Below, in pieces: positions 22,743 through 46,869 of a DNA stretch of 64,000 nt. A program made the position numbers and the translations under genes. How positions within the stretch are numbered: the stretch's first letter is position 1; each line of letters starts with the position of its first letter. The stretch lies in assembly GCF_900172225.1 (NCBI RefSeq), contig NZ_FWFO01000005.1, positions 1-64,000 of the forward strand, written 5' to 3'. A model generated the notes under the pieces. The model saw only the letters and a list, made by a program, of their open reading frames with translations. It searched no databases and was not told the DNA's origin. Source of the stretch: Falsiruegeria litorea R37 (lineage in GTDB: Bacteria > Pseudomonadota > Alphaproteobacteria > Rhodobacterales > Rhodobacteraceae).

Positions 22743-25700
22743 GCCAGCGCAACGAAGCCACCCAGAAACAGGTGACGGCAGCACAGCCCAACGCCTCGAC
22801 CTGGCTGTCGGCCAACGCGGGCTCGGGCAAGACGCGCGTTCTGACCGACCGTGTGGCGCGGCTGCTGCTGAGCGACGTGCAGCCGCAGCACATCCTGTGC
22901 CTGACCTACACCAAGGCCGCCGCGTCCGAGATGCAGAACCGGCTGTTCAAACGCCTGGGCGAATGGGCGATGTTGCCGGACGAAAAGCTCTATTCCCAAC
23001 TGAACGACCTTGGTGTCGATGGCGTCGTGAATACTGACCGGCTGTCTCATGCGCGCACGCTCTTTGCCCGCGCGATTGAAACTCCCGGTGGATTGAAAAT
23101 CCAGACGATCCACTCGTTCTGTGCCTCGCTCCTGCGGCGTTTCCCGCTCGAGGCCGGGGTGAGCCCGCAGTTCTCGGAAATGGAGGATCGGTCCGCCGCC
23201 CTGTTACGCGAAGAGATCGTCGAGGCGCTGGCCGAGGGAGATCAAGCGCATCTGGTAGACGACATTGCACGTTATGTGACGGATACGGGCTTTGACGGGC
23301 TGACACAGGCGATCACACAAAAACGCGATGCGTTTACAGGCGCGGTTGATTGGGCTGCGCTGATGGGCTGTTTCGAATTGCCTGCCGACTTTGACGAACA
23401 GGCCCTTTTGGATCGCGTCTATCTGGGCGGTGAGCTGGAGTTGATCTCGGCCATCCGTCCCTTGTTGACCGACAGCGGCGGCAACAATGCCAAGGCGGCG
23501 GCCAAACTGGCCGGATTCACCGATCGAACTCTGGCCACCTTGCCCATACTGGAAAGCGTGCTGCTCACTGGTGCTGGGGCCAAAGAGCCATTCACAGCCA
23601 AGTTAAACGGCTTCCCCACCAAAGCCCTGCGCGAAGGTGCAATGGCGGCGCAAATGCCACAGCTTGAGGCGCTGATGCGCCGGGTCGAAGACGCCCGCGA
23701 GCAGCGATTGGCACTTGTGGCGGCGCGTAAATCGCTGGCGTTACATCGGTTTGCCAGCGTCTTTTTACCGGAGTACGAACGCCGCAAGCAGCTGCGCGGG
23801 TGGCTCGATTTTGACGATCTGATCCTGAAAGCGCGTCAGCTGCTGAACGATCCCTCAGTGGCGGCTTGGGTACTTTATCGTCTGGACGGCGGCATCGACC
23901 ATATCCTGGTGGACGAGGCGCAGGATACCAGCCCCGCGCAATGGGACGTGATTGAAAAGCTGGCGCAGGAATTCACCAGTGGTGAGGGCGCGCGATCGGA
24001 TGTTGAACGCACGATCTTTGTGGTCGGCGACAAGAAACAGTCGATCTATTCCTTTCAGGGCGCAGACCCCGAAGCGTTTGACCGGATGCAGCAGGAATTT
24101 GGGCACAGACTTGAAGAGGCCGACTCTCACTTGGTGAGTTTGACGCTGGAATACTCCTTCCGATCCTCTGCCGCGGTACTGGGGCTGGTCGATCAGGTTT
24201 TCGATGGCAAAGTCGAGGCCGGTTTTCATGACGAGGCCAAGCACAAGGCGTTCAAAGCCGCCCTGCCCGGCCGCGTCGACATCTGGCCGGTGGTCGAAAA
24301 GGTCGACGATGACGACGACCGCCCCTGGACCGATCCCGTCGACCGGCCCAGCGCGCAGCATCACACAGTGATCCTGGCCGAACAGGTTGCCCGCGCCATC
24401 AAGCGGATGATTGATGAGGGTGAGACGATTCCCGAAGACGGCTCTGGACCAGGGAAATTTGTGCGCAGGCGGGTTAAACCAGGGGATTTCATGATCCTGG
24501 TGCAGCGGCGGTCTGACCTTTTTGCCGAGATCATCCGCGCCTGTAAGGCCGCTGGCCTGCCCATCGCAGGCGCCGACCGGCTCAAAGTGGGTGCGGAACT
24601 GGCGGTCAAGGATCTGGCCGCCCTGCTCAGCTTTCTCGCCACGCCCGAGGATGATCTGTCACTGGCCACAGTTTTGAAATCACCCCTATTGGGATGGAGC
24701 GAGCAACAGCTATTTGATTTGGCTCACCGCAGGACGGACAAGTACCTGTGGCCCGCGCTGCGCAACCGTGCCGAAGAGTTTCCCGAGACGCTTGCCGTTC
24801 TCAATGACCTGCGCGGCATGACCGATTTTCTACGGCCCTATGACCTGATCGAACGCATCCTGACGCGGCACGGCGGTCGGCAAAAGCTGCTGGGGCGACT
24901 AGGCGCCGAGGCCGAAGATGGGATCAACGCGCTGCTCAGCCAGGCCCTGGCTTATGAGCGGACGGATATTCCCAGCCTCACAGGCTTCCTGGTGTGGATG
25001 CAGACCGACGACCTTGAGATCAAACGCCAGATGGGTGGCGTGGGTAACATGATCCGGGTGATGACGGTGCACGGCTCCAAAGGGCTGGAATCGCCCATTG
25101 TGATCCTGCCCGACACGGGTGCGCGGCGTGCCCCCACGGATGACGAGATCATGATGGCGGGCGACATGCCGTTGTGGAAGGTGTCACGCGATGTCTCGCC
25201 GGGTGCTATTGCGCAGGCACGAACCGAGGCGCAAGCGCGGCAGATGAACGAGCGGCTGCGCTTGCTTTATGTTGCGCTGACGCGCGCCGAAAAGTGGCTG
25301 ATCGTTGCAGCTGCGGGAGATTTGGATAAATCCGGCGACAGTTGGTACCAGATGGTCGAAAGCGCGATGCGCGAAAAGGGTGCCGAGGCAATCCCCAATA
25401 CCACAATTCAGCGGTTGCAGCATGGCGATTGGTCCGGCCTGGCCCTGCGCGAAGAGCAAGCGCCTGAGAAAACCACTGTCACCCTGCCCGACCATTTCAG
25501 AAGCCGCGCCCCTGCCCCGGTTCCGTCACCGGCGACGATCAGCCCGTCGGATCTGGGTGGAGCCAAGGCCTTGGCTGGTGACATGGGTCTGGATGAGGAA
25601 ACCGCCAAGCTACGAGGCACACGAATCCATACGCTTTTGGAGCATCTGCCGGGAATCGCACCCACAGCCTGGCGACAAGTTGGCGCGCAACTGCTGCCCG

Positions 25701-37663: not shown

Positions 37664-38493
37664 CGCAGGGCCGCCGCGCGGGTGGCGCTGTCGACCGTGG
37701 GCCGTTCCCCGAACCAACGCTCAAAGCCAGGTACGGCTTGATGGAGCAACATACCAAGACCATCGACTGTGGTGCATCCGGCTTCTTCGGCAGTGAGCAA
37801 CAGTTTGGTCTTAAGAGGTGCATAGACCAGATCTGTCACAACGGCAGACGGCTTCAATCCATCCATCGGCACGCGCAGTTCGGAATTGCCAACCATACCA
37901 AGCGAGGTCGTGTTCACCACCAGATCTGCATCTTCAACCACATTGCCGGCTTGGACCCAATCGATCACCTGCACCCGCTTGCCGAAATCATCGCGCAGCT
38001 TTTCCGCGCGAAGGCGGGTGCGGTTCGACAGGAAGATTTCCGGAACGCCGGCCTCGAGCAGGGCTGATATCACGGCTCGAGCAGCTCCGCCGGCCCCAAG
38101 CACCAAAGCCGGGCCGGATTTCGGATCCCAATCAGGCGCACCACTATGTAGGTTTTCCATGAACCCATAGCCATCGGTATTGTCAGCGTGGATCTTGCCA
38201 TCTTCGCGGAAGATCAGCGTGTTCGCCGCACCGATCAGCGTCGCCCGATCCGTGATCTGATCAGCAATTGCCATCACCGCCTCTTTGTGAGGGACGGTCA
38301 CGTTGACGCCCACAAAGCCGGCCTTGGGCAGCGTACGCAGAACCGTTTCCAGATCCTGTGGCGCAACGTCCATCGGGATGTAGTGCCCGGCGATGCCATA
38401 AGTCTTGAGCCAGTGCCCGTGCAATCTGGGGGATTTGGAATGCGCAATCGGGTGTCCGATCACCCCAGCCAAAGGAATACGTGTGTTCGTCAT
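37660..38493 (-). CDS. aroE: Shikimate dehydrogenase
   Basis: The product is 277 residues. It reduces 3-dehydroshikimate with NADPH in aromatic amino acid synthesis. Substrate loop IGHPIAHSKSPRLH, catalytic Lys in VNVTVPHKE, DNTDGYGF, and the dinucleotide motif VLGAGGAARAV are all present. ATGA overlaps at both ends (with maf and coaE). Confidence 0.96.
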   Translation of the reverse strand: MTNTRIPLAGVIGHPIAHSKSPRLHGHWLKTYGIAGHYIPMDVAPQDLETVLRTLPKAGFVGVNVTVPHKEAVMAIADQITDRATLIGAANTLIFREDGKIHADNTDGYGFMENLHSGAPDWDPKSGPALVLGAGGAARAVISALLEAGVPEIFLSNRTRLRAEKLRDDFGKRVQVIDWVQAGNVVEDADLVVNTTSLGMVGNSELRVPMDGLKPSAVVTDLVYAPLKTKLLLTAEEAGCTTVDGLGMLLHQAVPGFERWFGERPTVDSATRAAALR

Positions 38494-39089
38494 TGTTCGA
38501 TCACCCCCCGCAACGTCAGGAAATTGAGCAGCTCTAACAGGGGCATACCCAAAACGTTAAAATAGTCCCCGTCAATGGTTGTGAACAAACGTACACCCTC
38601 TTCTTCGAGTTTGTAGGCCCCAACCGCATGGCGAATGCTGTCCCAGTTCCGATCAACATAAGAGCGCAGATAGGTGTCCGAACTCGCCCGCATCCGTAAA
38701 CGCACCTGACCCACGTGACGCCAGATCGGTTCGCCGTTTTCATAGATCACAGCCGCTGACAACAGCATGTGACGTTGACCGCGCATCGCCTTGAGCTGAT
38801 CAAACGCTTGATCCGGCGAGGCCGGCTTGGACAGAAGCTGTCCCTGAAAGTCCAAAACCTGGTCACAGCCCAGAACCAACGCACCTGGTGTTTTCAGACT
38901 GATCTTGCGCGCCTTGAGCTCGGCCAGGGCATCAGCGATGTCGCGGGGCGGGGCCTCTTCCGCGATCAGTGCATTTTTAACAGTATCTTCATCAACACGG
39001 GGCACATTAACTTCAAAAGGGACACCTGCGTTGCGCAGCAGCTGCGCCCGGATGGTTGAGCCAGAGGCGAGGACGATGGGGACAGTCAT
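38490..39089 (-). CDS. maf: Maf-family nucleotide pyrophosphatase
   Basis: The product is 199 residues. Maf proteins hydrolyse non-canonical or canonical NTPs to NMPs. Blocks: VLASGSTIRAQLLRNAGV, ALVLGCDQVLDFQGQ (catalytic Asp region), and DGDYFNVLGMPLLELL. The ATG at 39089 is chosen by family alignment; a perfect DnaA box (39089-39097) begins at its first base, so the gene directly abuts the origin. In Caulobacter and Rickettsia the same maf-aroE-coaE-dnaQ cluster flanks the origin. Confidence 0.9.
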   Translation of the reverse strand: MTVPIVLASGSTIRAQLLRNAGVPFEVNVPRVDEDTVKNALIAEEAPPRDIADALAELKARKISLKTPGALVLGCDQVLDFQGQLLSKPASPDQAFDQLKAMRGQRHMLLSAAVIYENGEPIWRHVGQVRLRMRASSDTYLRSYVDRNWDSIRHAVGAYKLEEEGVRLFTTIDGDYFNVLGMPLLELLNFLTLRGVIEQ

Positions 39090-39496
39090 GTGGATAACCC
39101 CTTGGGCAAGTCTTTGAGCGATTTCGGATGGTTTGTATGACTTTCCGCTTGCCACGCAACCCCCGGAGTATTGCGAAAAACATCTCTGAGTCGTTCGAGT
39201 TGTATCCTTTCGGGACAAGGATAACTTGAATCCCGTGGATAACCCGATCACCCCAAGTTACCCGCAAGCTTATCCCCAGGATCTCCAAGTTTGACTTGGA
39301 TCAAGGTATTGTTTTTAAACTGATTTTATTGAATGTGGGGAAACCACGCATGGACACCTGCCATCTTTCCCACATGGGGAAAACTGACAGGATAGATGAG
39401 TTATCCACGAAAATCGGGCTACCTACAAAAATCATCATCCTTTTTTCTTTCTTTCTTTTTTATTAGGTATCCCGGAACCCGAGCCGCGAGATATCC
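39090..39496. other. Putative chromosomal replication origin (oriC)
   Basis: This 407-bp non-coding stretch holds DnaA boxes: TGTGGATAA (39089-39097, perfect, minus), CGTGGATAA (39234-39242, minus, 8/9), TTATCCCCA (39270-39278, plus, 8/9), TTATCCACG (39401-39409, plus, 8/9), and weaker TTTCCCACA (39366-39374), TGTGGGGAA (39334-39342) and CAAGGATAA (39216-39224). An AT-rich unwinding candidate lies at 39303-39335, containing TTAA-N7-TTAT (39315-39329), one base from a CtrA site. A GANTC methylation site is at 39228-39232, and TCCAAGT-TTG-ACTTGGA is a dyad at 39284-39300. A pyrimidine tract follows at 39439-39462. Gene context matches known alphaproteobacterial origins. Confidence 0.82.
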
Positions 39497-39946
39497 ATGA
39501 CCGATTTCCTGTTCACGATTTACCCATGGGTCAAATCCCTGCACATCATGGCAGTCATCTCGTGGATGGCGGGGCTGTTCTATCTCCCCCGCCTGTTCGT
39601 GCATCATGTCGAGCAAGCTAAGAAAGTTCGGGGAGCACCTGAAATCTTTCTGATGATGCAAGAGAAGCTTTTGCGGATCATCATGCGACCGGCAATGATC
39701 GTGACCTGGGTCTGCGGTCTGATCATGGTCTTTACACCGGGTATCGTCGACTGGTCGTGGATCTGGCCCTGGACCAAAGGTGCATCGGTTCTGGCGATGA
39801 CCTGGTTCCATCATTGGCTGCTCAAGCAACATCGCAGCTTGGAAGAGGGGACCAATACCCTCTCAGGGCGCACATACCGCCTCATGAATGAGGTTCCGAC
39901 CGTTTTGATGGTCATCATCGTGCTGTCGGTCATTTTGAAATTCTGA
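39497..39946 (+). CDS. hemJ: Protoporphyrinogen oxidase HemJ
   Basis: The product is 149 residues with four membrane helices. HemJ oxidises protoporphyrinogen IX to protoporphyrin IX in bacteria lacking HemG or HemY-type oxidases. The conserved His in KSLHIMAVISWMAGLFYLPRLFVHH, the Arg/Lys-rich loop and WFHHWLLKQH are family features. It borders the origin on the side where other alphaproteobacteria carry hemE and, like them, precedes rho. Confidence 0.9.
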   Translation: MTDFLFTIYPWVKSLHIMAVISWMAGLFYLPRLFVHHVEQAKKVRGAPEIFLMMQEKLLRIIMRPAMIVTWVCGLIMVFTPGIVDWSWIWPWTKGASVLAMTWFHHWLLKQHRSLEEGTNTLSGRTYRLMNEVPTVLMVIIVLSVILKF

Positions 39947-42661: not shown

Positions 42662-42677
42662 TGTTTCACGTGAAACA
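42662..42677. other. parS centromere site 1
   Basis: TGTTTCACGTGAAACA is a perfect 16-bp palindrome identical to the consensus ParB-binding parS. It spans the mnmG start codon (GTG 42670-42672). Confidence 0.95.
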
Positions 42678-44538: not shown

Positions 44539-45173
44539 AGAAGGATGCCTTTGAGAGAGCGACCGGACTGAATGTTTCACGTGAAACATTTAAACGCCTG
44601 GAAACCTATGTAGCTCTGGTGAAGAAGTGGAATCCCGCGATCAATGTGGTGTCTCGCAAGAGCTTGGATGATATCTGGCCTAGGCATATCGTGGATTCTG
44701 TTCAGTTGTTCACTTGCATAGAAACTTCAAAATCTTGGTTGGATCTAGGGAGTGGCGGCGGCTTCCCTGGCGCTGTGATCTCTATTCTTGCCAATGAGTT
44801 TTCTGCGGATACGTCAGTTACTCTGGTGGAAAGCGATCAGAGGAAATCCGCTTTTCTAAGGAATGTTTCACGTGAAACATCGTCTGACTTTAGGGTAATT
44901 AGTAAGCGAATCGAGCAAGTTGAACCGCAACATGCAGATGTGATTTCAGCGAGGGCGCTCACAAATCTGAGTGGACTGATGGCGTTTTGCGAACGTCACC
45001 TCAACCCAGCGGGTGTGGCGATTTTTCCCAAGGGCGCAACTTGGAAAAAAGAGGTCAGTGAGGCGCAAAGAGATTGGCAATTTGAGGTGGATACGATTAC
45101 TAGTATCACTGAACCCCAGGCCGTAATCCTTAAAATCAAGGGAATCGAGCGTGCACGATCTGTCCCGTCCTGA
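44535..45173 (+). CDS. rsmG: 16S rRNA (guanine-527-N7)-methyltransferase RsmG
   Basis: The product is 212 residues. Methylates G527 of 16S rRNA. The SAM motif [13 protein letters not shown] (about 69-81) and [14 protein letters not shown] are typical. Two parS sites are embedded: both are read in the same frame as Asn-Val-Ser-Arg-Glu-Thr, at residues 13-18 and 110-115, so part of the protein sequence is dictated by the centromere. ATGA overlap with mnmG; its end overlaps parA by 23 bases. Confidence 0.95.
44573..44588. other. parS centromere site 2
   Basis: Perfect TGTTTCACGTGAAACA within rsmG, coding for NVSRET at residues 13-18. Confidence 0.95.
44864..44879. other. parS centromere site 3
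   Basis: Perfect TGTTTCACGTGAAACA within rsmG, coding for NVSRET at residues 110-115. Confidence 0.95.
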
Positions 45174-45960
45174 TGGACCAAAAATCATTGCGGTTGCCAA
45201 TCAAAAGGGCGGAGTTGGGAAGACTACAACAACAATCAATTTGGCCGCAGCTTTGGTCGAACGCGGTATGCGTGTTCTTGTCGTTGATCTTGATCCTCAG
45301 GGAAATGCGTCGACAGGGCTGGGTATCGAAAGATCTGATCGCACCCAAACCAGCTATGATCTTCTGGTTGATGACGCTGCACCCGAAGAAGTCATCCATA
45401 GTACCGACTTCGATGGTCTTTCGATAATTCCAGCAACCGTTGATCTAAGCTCGGCTGACATTGAACTGGTTTCCAATGAAAAAAGGAGTTTTTTGCTCCA
45501 CGATGCCCTGCGTCAAACTGCGATGGACGCCTTTGGCTGGGACTATATTCTTGTTGATTGCCCGCCGTCTTTGAACCTGCTGACTGTCAATGCGATGGTA
45601 GCAGCACACTCTGTCCTGGTCCCGCTGCAAAGTGAATTCTTTGCTCTGGAAGGTTTGTCCCAATTGATGTTGACGATCCGCGAAGTGCGGCAAACTGCAA
45701 ATCCTCAGCTGCGAATAGAGGGGATTGTTCTGACGATGTTTGATCGGCGAAACAACTTGTCGCAGCAAGTAGAGGCTGATGCCAGGGACAATTTGGGTGA
45801 TCTAGTCTTCGAAACCAAGATCCCCAGAAACGTTCGGGTCAGCGAAGCGCCTTCTTACGCACTTCCAGTTTTGAGCTATGATCCGAACTCATTGGGTGCT
45901 CAAGCCTATCGTGAGTTGGCGGGGGAGCTCATGGTAAAAGACAATAAGATTTCCGCGTAA
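45151..45960 (+). CDS. parA: Chromosome partitioning ATPase ParA
   Basis: The product is 269 residues. Deviant Walker A NQKGGVGKTTTTINLAAAL, VDLDPQGNASTGLG (A'), and LVDCPPSLNLLTVNA (B) mark a Soj/ParA ATPase, which moves ParB-parS complexes along the nucleoid. GTG start at 45151 with AAGGGA eight bases upstream; it overlaps the rsmG end. Followed by parB after 15 bases. Confidence 0.96.
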   Translation: MHDLSRPDGPKIIAVANQKGGVGKTTTTINLAAALVERGMRVLVVDLDPQGNASTGLGIERSDRTQTSYDLLVDDAAPEEVIHSTDFDGLSIIPATVDLSSADIELVSNEKRSFLLHDALRQTAMDAFGWDYILVDCPPSLNLLTVNAMVAAHSVLVPLQSEFFALEGLSQLMLTIREVRQTANPQLRIEGIVLTMFDRRNNLSQQVEADARDNLGDLVFETKIPRNVRVSEAPSYALPVLSYDPNSLGAQAYRELAGELMVKDNKISA

Positions 45961-45975: not shown

Positions 45976-46869
45976 ATGGCTACAAACAAGGGAAAACCCC
46001 GGGGGTTGGGACGCGGGCTATCAGCGCTTATGGCTGATGTAACACCGGAGGAGGATATCAGCACAAGCACGCCGCGCCGGGCCGATATCACGGTTCCAAT
46101 TGAAAAGCTGCAAGCAAACCCTGATCAGCCACGTCGCACATTCAAGCAGGACGACTTGGATGATTTGGCCGCATCAATCAAGGAAAAGGGCATTCTTCAG
46201 CCTTTGATTGTTCGGTCGCTTGAAGGCGGCAACTACGAGATTGTTGCGGGTGAGCGGCGGTGGCGTGCGGCACAGTTGGCGCAGCTCCATGATGTACCGG
46301 TTTTGGTGCGCGAGCTGGACGATACCGAAGTTCTGGAAATTGCAATTATCGAGAACATCCAGCGTGCTGACTTGAACGCCGTGGAAGAGGCGGCAGGATT
46401 TCGGCAGTTGATGGATCGCTTTGGTCATACTCAGGAAAAACTGGCTGAGGCTTTGGGTAAGAGCCGCAGCTATATTGCGAACCTTCTGCGTCTTTTGGCT
46501 TTGCCCGAAGATGTTCAGCAGATGGTTGTTGATGGATTGCTGTCTGCTGGTCACGCGCGTGCTCTGATTACCTCAGAGAATCCGTCCGAGTTGGCCAAGA
46601 TTGTTATACGTGACGGTTTGTCTGTCCGTGCGACAGAAGCTTTGGTGAAACGTCAGCAGCAAAAGGATGCGCCTACAGCTGCCCCAAAAGCGCGTAGCTC
46701 AGGTTCGGAAAAGGATGCTGATACGCGTGCGCTGGAAAAAGACCTGTCCGCCATCTTGGCAATGAAGGTTGCGATCAATCACAAGGCCGGCACGGAAGCA
46801 GGGCAGGTGGTCTTGACGTATGAGAACCTGGATCAGCTCGACGATTTGTGCGCCAAACTTAGCCGCTAG
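45976..46869 (+). CDS. parB: Chromosome partitioning protein ParB
   Basis: The product is 297 residues. N-terminal CTP-binding/hydrolysing domain with QPRRTF and GERRWRAAQ; central helix-turn-helix (EKLAEALGKSRSYIANLLRLL) that binds parS; C-terminal dimer domain (TRALEKDLSAILAMKVAI onwards). Loads on the three parS sites 1-3 kb upstream and spreads as a sliding clamp. GGGGAGAAG precedes the ATG. Ends overlapping the convergent DUF454 gene by 11 bases. Confidence 0.97.
   Translation: MATNKGKPRGLGRGLSALMADVTPEEDISTSTPRRADITVPIEKLQANPDQPRRTFKQDDLDDLAASIKEKGILQPLIVRSLEGGNYEIVAGERRWRAAQLAQLHDVPVLVRELDDTEVLEIAIIENIQRADLNAVEEAAGFRQLMDRFGHTQEKLAEALGKSRSYIANLLRLLALPEDVQQMVVDGLLSAGHARALITSENPSELAKIVIRDGLSVRATEALVKRQQQKDAPTAAPKARSSGSEKDADTRALEKDLSAILAMKVAINHKAGTEAGQVVLTYENLDQLDDLCAKLSR

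Follow-up and report, generated by a model that had tools for sequence, protein, structure and literature searches.

Where replication of the chromosome begins in Falsiruegeria litorea R37 is the question raised by the spacer between the divergent genes maf and hemJ. The genome is a draft (4,687,986 bases in 18 contigs), of which approximately 0.9 Mb was read, namely 884 kb made up of the window (the whole 64-kb stretch of DNA under analysis) and 41 stretches of 20 kb. A sequence-only reading had placed the chromosomal replication origin (oriC) in this spacer, at 39090..39496, and five lines of evidence support the placement: a cluster of DnaA boxes, an element of low helix stability, a change in GC skew that appears after correction for gene strand, parS sites together with parAB, and a position conserved among relatives. 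They make oriC the best reading of the locus, and the spacer, taken as 39089-39496, is almost certainly the chromosomal oriC of this strain, as far as can be judged from the DNA. The proposed interval did coincide with the spacer but missed one base on its left side, where the perfect DnaA box begins at 39089.

Bordering genes and DnaA boxes

The G+C content of the spacer is 45.7%, against 57.9% for the window. The flanking genes proved to be those named earlier, with maf, aroE, coaE, dnaQ, rho, parA, parB and the UPF0093 gene hemJ recognized by Pfam and mnmE, mnmG and rsmG by NCBIfam models; secB (Pfam) is also among them. HemJ remained under the NCBIfam cut-off (130 vs 138.05 bits), yet far above that of Pfam, and the same applied to Maf (TIGR00172, 114.8 vs 117.15; best model, 182.8 vs 269). 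Among the best 80 of 350 loci, which come mainly from Ruegeria and its close kin, the nearest named relatives are Falsiruegeria mediterranea and Tropicibacter strains, with HemJ 96-97% identical. In 105 of 110 hemJ loci, maf lies upstream of hemJ in divergent orientation, with a median gap of 405 bp. The five loci dropped for having no maf upstream of hemJ (L009, L024, L030, L031 and L170) span just 3.4 kb, apart from L170, where the upstream part amounts to 609 bp. The 105 rows contain 5 exact duplicates and hence 100 distinct spacers, among which Ruegeria and near kin are overweighted. Features of the locus are collected in Table 1.

Table 1. Coordinates (window numbering) of the spacer elements, bordering genes and partition functions.
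Feature	Position	Strand	Remarks
maf (Maf-like nucleotide pyrophosphatase), left border	38490..39089	-	Pfam Maf, 147.7 bits
Perfect DnaA box TTATCCACA, 9/9	39089-39097	-	last A is the A of the maf ATG
GANTC (CcrM-type) site	39188..39192		position recurs in Ruegeria-type spacers
Inverted repeat TATCCTT-N7-AAGGATA with DnaA-box-like cores	39203..39223		right arm kept: AAGGATAA in 65 of 105 rows (duplicates included)
DnaA box TTATCCACG, 8/9	39234-39242	-
Weaker DnaA boxes, 7/9	39258, 39334, 39366, 39375
DnaA box TTATCCCCA, 8/9	39270-39278	+	TTATCC core kept in the 81-row alignment
Presumed FNR-type palindrome TTGACTTGGATCAA	39291..39304		overlaps the 17-bp dyad; ~190 bp upstream of hemJ
Most AT-rich 33-mer of the spacer	39300..39332		26/33 AT; poorly conserved
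DnaA box TTATCCACG, 8/9	39401-39409	+	adjoins the conserved AT-rich block
Candidate DNA unwinding element	39422..39465	+	conserved block CCTAC-AAAA-CATCATCCTTTTTT (39422-39445) plus least stable stretch (39430-39465)
hemJ (UPF0093), right border	39497..39946	+	Pfam, 187.4 bits
Presumed parS, exact	42662..42677		inside mnmG start
Presumed parS, exact	44573..44588		inside rsmG
Presumed parS, exact	44864..44879		inside rsmG
parA	45151..45960	+	Pfam AAA_31/ParA
parB	45976..46869	+	Pfam ParB_N, HTH_ParB, ParB_C

The spacer had been credited with one perfect and three 8/9 DnaA boxes in both orientations in addition to weaker ones, and exactly this set was found. In the slice 39075-39499, four boxes with no more than one mismatch compare with a mean of 0.15 in dinucleotide shuffles, none of 2000 of which reached four, while eight boxes with up to two mismatches stand against 1.5 expected (0 of 1000 shuffles). 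Such a cluster, beyond chance and found nowhere else in the genome, is what an oriC would be expected to carry; its uniqueness was established genome-wide for TTATCCAC only, and over 884 kb for the one-mismatch boxes. The 4.69-Mb genome contains 49 copies of the motif TTATCCAC, and nowhere but at the spacer do three of them fall within 320 bp. Counted per 420 bp over the 884 kb (window included), boxes with at most one mismatch number four in the spacer, two at the next-best places and 0.045 on average. The DnaA box is not over-represented genome-wide, as seen from the comparison with backward-read controls (49 vs 76 for TTATCCAC and 127 vs 99 for TTWTNCACA); it is the clustering at the spacer that stands out. 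Counting against the oriC reading, 8 of the 100 distinct spacers have just one box with one mismatch or fewer.

A separate pair of perfect TTATCCACA boxes, in the same orientation and 76 bp apart, was noticed at L188 3526-3610 (G000:C1:2388526-2388610). It occupies a gap upstream of an ORF which we take to be exodeoxyribonuclease III-like, beyond the ter-like skew change of contig C1 (see below), and is possibly a DnaA titration or regulatory site. An ORF consisting of low-complexity MFSSGSAP-x-GEGTQ repeats (L188 2819-3463) adjoins this pair.

Strand composition and partition sites

A minimum of the cumulative GC skew had been predicted at about 39.3 kb. The raw curve did not bear this out, having its minimum at 23,149 (contig C5, 1-144 kb). 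Because gene direction blurs the raw skew, four-fold sites were counted per gene strand, whereby the values left and right of 39.3 kb became -0.099 and +0.111 for plus genes and -0.053 and +0.108 for minus genes. The minus-to-plus change in strand composition that is expected of an origin is thus present in the four-fold-site skew, with the raw minimum offset to 23.1 kb. The change-point likelihood formed a plateau from 39.0 to 43.5 kb with a gain of 59.2-59.9 log units (57.7 at 42.0 kb), and the best cuts, at 42.5-43.5 kb, slightly beat those at 39.0-39.5 kb (59.9 vs 59.2 log units).

An origin close by but outside the spacer, such as one in the rho-parB interval or around 23 kb, would agree with the position of the raw minimum or with the marginally best likelihood. 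However, the 42.5-43.5 kb region falls within the mnmE/mnmG reading frames, the genome has no second group of three TTATCCAC, and the corrected skew is still negative from 26 to 39.3 kb (-0.078) and positive from 39.3 to 52 kb (+0.158). Overall, a nearby location is very improbable, and the spacer itself is retained as the predicted origin.

The skew of contig C1 (2.8 Mb) was sampled with 28 stretches of 20 kb. Up to 2.0 Mb, 17 of 21 samples were positive, and from 2.1 Mb on, 5 of 7 were negative; the exceptions were slightly negative at 0, 100, 800 and 1900 kb and slightly positive at 2300 and 2790 kb. This opposite change near 2.0-2.1 Mb is ter-like, as expected of a terminus. In G006, a member of the same family assembled as a single contig, 10 of 11 samples were negative from 1.62 Mb to hemJ (3.477 Mb of 3.559 Mb) and 6 of 9 were positive in the first 1.46 Mb. 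The change is located just roughly in this genome because the first two samples (0-195 kb), which are the nearest beyond hemJ, were negative.

The palindrome TGTTTCACGTGAAACA, which we take to be parS, occurs exactly three times, always in the window, 3.2-5.4 kb from the spacer and near parA and parB; no copy with up to two mismatches was detected elsewhere in the genome. Apart from this, TGTTTCACG was found to be half of the same palindrome. Ori-Finder 2008 put this motif forward as a 'species-specific DnaA box' for Bradyrhizobiaceae (PMC2275245), and it also served, together with two other DnaA box motifs, in assigning Rhodobacteraceae origins (PMC6699656); it is absent from the main text of Ori-Finder 2022 (PMC10225481). 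Alphaproteobacterial origin calls using TGTTTCACG may therefore have scored parS sites as DnaA boxes.

In many bacteria the origin lies at dnaA, and if this were so here, the boxes between maf and hemJ would be a DnaA titration or regulatory site. The dnaA gene is on another contig (C1, 74 kb), and the passage there from slightly negative skew at 0 and 100 kb to positive at 200 kb is a weak change with the right sign. Similar weak dips, however, are seen at 800 and 1900 kb of C1, no parS is near dnaA, and the four boxes with at most one mismatch in the surrounding 20 kb are scattered. Lacking a box cluster, dnaA was rejected as the origin site, and its chance of being the true one is minute.

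Candidate unwinding element and other motifs of the spacer

Conservation was followed in an alignment of 81 distinct spacers from the own genus and Ruegeria-type relatives, with more distant genera excluded (mean identity to the query spacer, 0.58). The most conserved parts were the maf-start box, the AAGGATAA arm at 39217-39224, the cores of the boxes at 39234, 39270 and 39401, the box-like TGGGGAAAA at 39375 and the block CCTAC-AAAA-CATCATCCTTTTTT. According to nearest-neighbour energies, the stretch 39430-39465 is the least stable one of 36 bases (35 steps) in the entire window, and it lies near the box at 39401. The readily melting, AT-rich element next to a DnaA box that is expected of an oriC is hence present by computed stability, the unwinding itself being predicted. 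We infer that the conserved block and the unstable stretch together are the best candidate for the unwinding element. The AT-rich 33-bp stretch pointed out by the sequence-only reading does exist at 39300-39332, but the least stable stretch of the window is a different one. The CATCATC repeat of the conserved block was also considered as a DnaA-trio and set aside, since by eye it gave no clean fit to the published consensus.

Several smaller motifs had been listed as well. The 17-bp dyad is indeed present at 39284-39300, but it is unconserved among congeners and was rejected as a functional element; two such dyads, this one and that at 39203-39223, arose in 123 of 2000 shuffles. The near-CtrA site TTAA-N7-TTAT is found at 39315, but only at chance level (487 of 2000 shuffles had as many), and the full site TTAA-N7-TTAA is absent from the spacer and present in 6 of the 105 relatives' loci. 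Control of the origin by CtrA in the Caulobacter manner, with several sites, was rejected, the sites being at chance level and unconserved. According to a perspective article, growth and viability do not suffer from loss of ctrA in the Rhodobacterales studied, although CtrA was shown to influence replication in some of them (PMC8116508). As for GANTC, there are two sites (39188 and 39228) rather than the single one reported, and the spacer is not enriched in them (1309 of 2000 shuffles).

The palindrome at 39291-39304 is presumably of the FNR type; one was present in 7 of 2000 shuffles. It recurred little for a conserved oriC element, in 4 of 105 rows, which represent three genomes after duplicate removal, two of them congeners. 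One of three congeners, G002, has TTGATTTCGATCAA at the place of the palindrome, and one Ruegeria has an FNR-type palindrome at a different position. Judging from its sequence, such a site could link oxygen to hemJ or to the origin.

With the spacer as oriC, initiation might proceed as follows. DnaA-ATP would bind the boxes between 39089 and 39409, and the box at 39401 would direct it to the adjoining unstable block 39422-39465, which would open and take up the helicase, as its position, conservation and stability suggest. Forks would then depart both ways, leaving the skew change that is seen as composition, and ParB on the three putative parS sites 3-5 kb to the right would segregate the new origins, consistent with the presence of the parABS genes and sites. 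By comparison with other genomes, the present neighbours are the outcome of hemE and ppsR loss from an ancestral maf-ppsR-oriC-hemE-hemJ-rho, with a probable order of loss given below.

Gene order around the origin and the DnaA box on the maf start codon

The placement of oriC on the maf side is already recorded for Rhodobacteraceae and is not new. According to DoriC, an oriC next to maf is conserved across the family (PMC4793288). As in F. litorea, the oriC of Ketogulonicigenium vulgare and other Rhodobacteraceae directly adjoins maf, with DnaA boxes found by Ori-Finder; hemJ, the loss of ppsR and hemE, and the box on the maf start codon are not discussed in the passages of that account dealing with the origin (PMC4793288). 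Kopejtka et al. used parAB proximity as one criterion in assigning oriC for 101 Rhodobacteraceae strains (PMC6699656), and the R. sphaeroides origin was assigned by GC skew and parABS (PMC6315104). Cori of Caulobacter crescentus, situated between hemE and CC_0001 (COG1806/DUF299, a ppsR homologue), is similar in having ~400 bp, a higher AT content than the genome, DnaA boxes and a homologous chromosomal position (PMC1914354). It differs in possessing five CtrA sites and an IHF site, whereas the CtrA sites of F. litorea are at chance level, and the F. litorea gap is no longer bordered by hemE and the DUF299 gene (PMC1914354). The Rickettsia prowazekii ori, between hemE and RP001, likewise has a homologous position and ~400 bp but is still flanked directly by hemE and the COG1806 gene (PMC1914354).

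The claimed homology of the flanks to the alphaproteobacterial origin cluster holds, since outgroups too have maf and hemJ-rho on opposite sides. Direct borders formed by hemE and ppsR (DUF299/COG1806) are lacking in F. litorea. The kinase-pyrophosphorylase gene ppsR was correctly said to be missing beside maf and has no match anywhere in the genome, and hemE is present in one copy on contig C4, where the ORF beside it is presumably hemC-like. The suggestion that hemE had been replaced by hemJ is wrong. Ten outgroup loci were selected from the 17 genomes with a hemJ match that belong to other families in the class: hemE is between the gap and hemJ in eight of them, ppsR borders the gap in six, and the complete order maf-ppsR-gap-hemE-hemJ-rho is found in four. 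The exceptions are L180 (ppsR without hemE between), L183 and L187 (maf facing hemE without ppsR) and L182 (hemJ alone). Across 61 genomes, ppsR was present in 14, comprising 3 of the 37 Rhodobacteraceae and 11 of the 24 remaining members of the class; within the family, G007 retains both ppsR and hemE, and G004 and G018 retain ppsR only. In L023 and L026, ppsR stands between maf and the gap, maf being directly adjacent in 103 of the 105 rows. From the outgroup and family gene orders, hemJ is therefore most simply ancestral between hemE and rho, with hemE and ppsR lost from the site; the simplest order of events in Rhodobacteraceae would be that hemE was lost first. Each of the eight outgroup gaps scanned had at least one DnaA box with one mismatch or fewer. 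In G005, G012 and G028, three genomes of the same family listed as 99-100% complete, HemJ was unmatched at E <= 0.001.

The overlap of the outermost DnaA box with the maf start codon was confirmed: one base is shared with the ATG, and the arrangement is kept among near relatives. In 83 of the 100 distinct spacers, the A of the predicted maf start is also the end of a box with no more than one mismatch, and in 91 such a box lies within ~20 bp, with the reservation that maf starts were extrapolated from protein matches and some registers may be off. A fairer sample is one locus per genus (25 family loci, 23 with maf, all from the best 30 matches), in which a near box was found in 16 of 23 and the exact register in 8 of 23. 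The loci with no near box are L010, L014, L018, L020, L023, L026 and L029. Of these, L018 and L020 show a box with two mismatches, and in L023 and L026 the place is taken by ppsR, whose start carries no box in either of these two family members. Literature searches on hemJ/maf/oriC together and on maf with DnaA brought up no title dealing with a box on the maf start codon, which, at the level of titles, is no proof of absence.

That maf expression is coupled to initiator binding, as the sequence-only reading put it, is a reasonable hypothesis backed by sequence conservation, but a box retained because it forms the origin's outer edge would leave the same pattern as one retained for the control of maf. 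A more specific scenario is that ppsR loss put maf against the origin, and that the register was selected in the Ruegeria-type group, and a near-start box in most genera examined, as edge-bound DnaA would switch maf off (or maf transcription would disturb the box). We consider this scenario rather doubtful, given that no more than 8 of the 23 one-per-genus loci show the exact register. The idea that the spacer merely holds the divergent promoters of maf and hemJ, with transcription regulated by DnaA, would suit the divergent genes, the box that most examined relatives have at the maf start and the FNR-type palindrome upstream of hemJ, but it deserves hardly any credence, leaving unexplained the skew change, the unstable element, the parS neighbourhood and the persistence of a box-bearing gap where ppsR and hemE flank it.

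Overall, with the maf-hemJ spacer read as oriC, a draft roseobacter genome gains an origin position from independent lines of evidence, and the conserved element map (boxes and candidate unwinding block) is open to testing in any Ruegeria-type strain. The new points are small, namely the route of neighbour-gene loss and the DnaA box on the first codon of maf. If the scenario of selected maf control were true, initiation would be directly linked to an enzyme of nucleotide house-cleaning.
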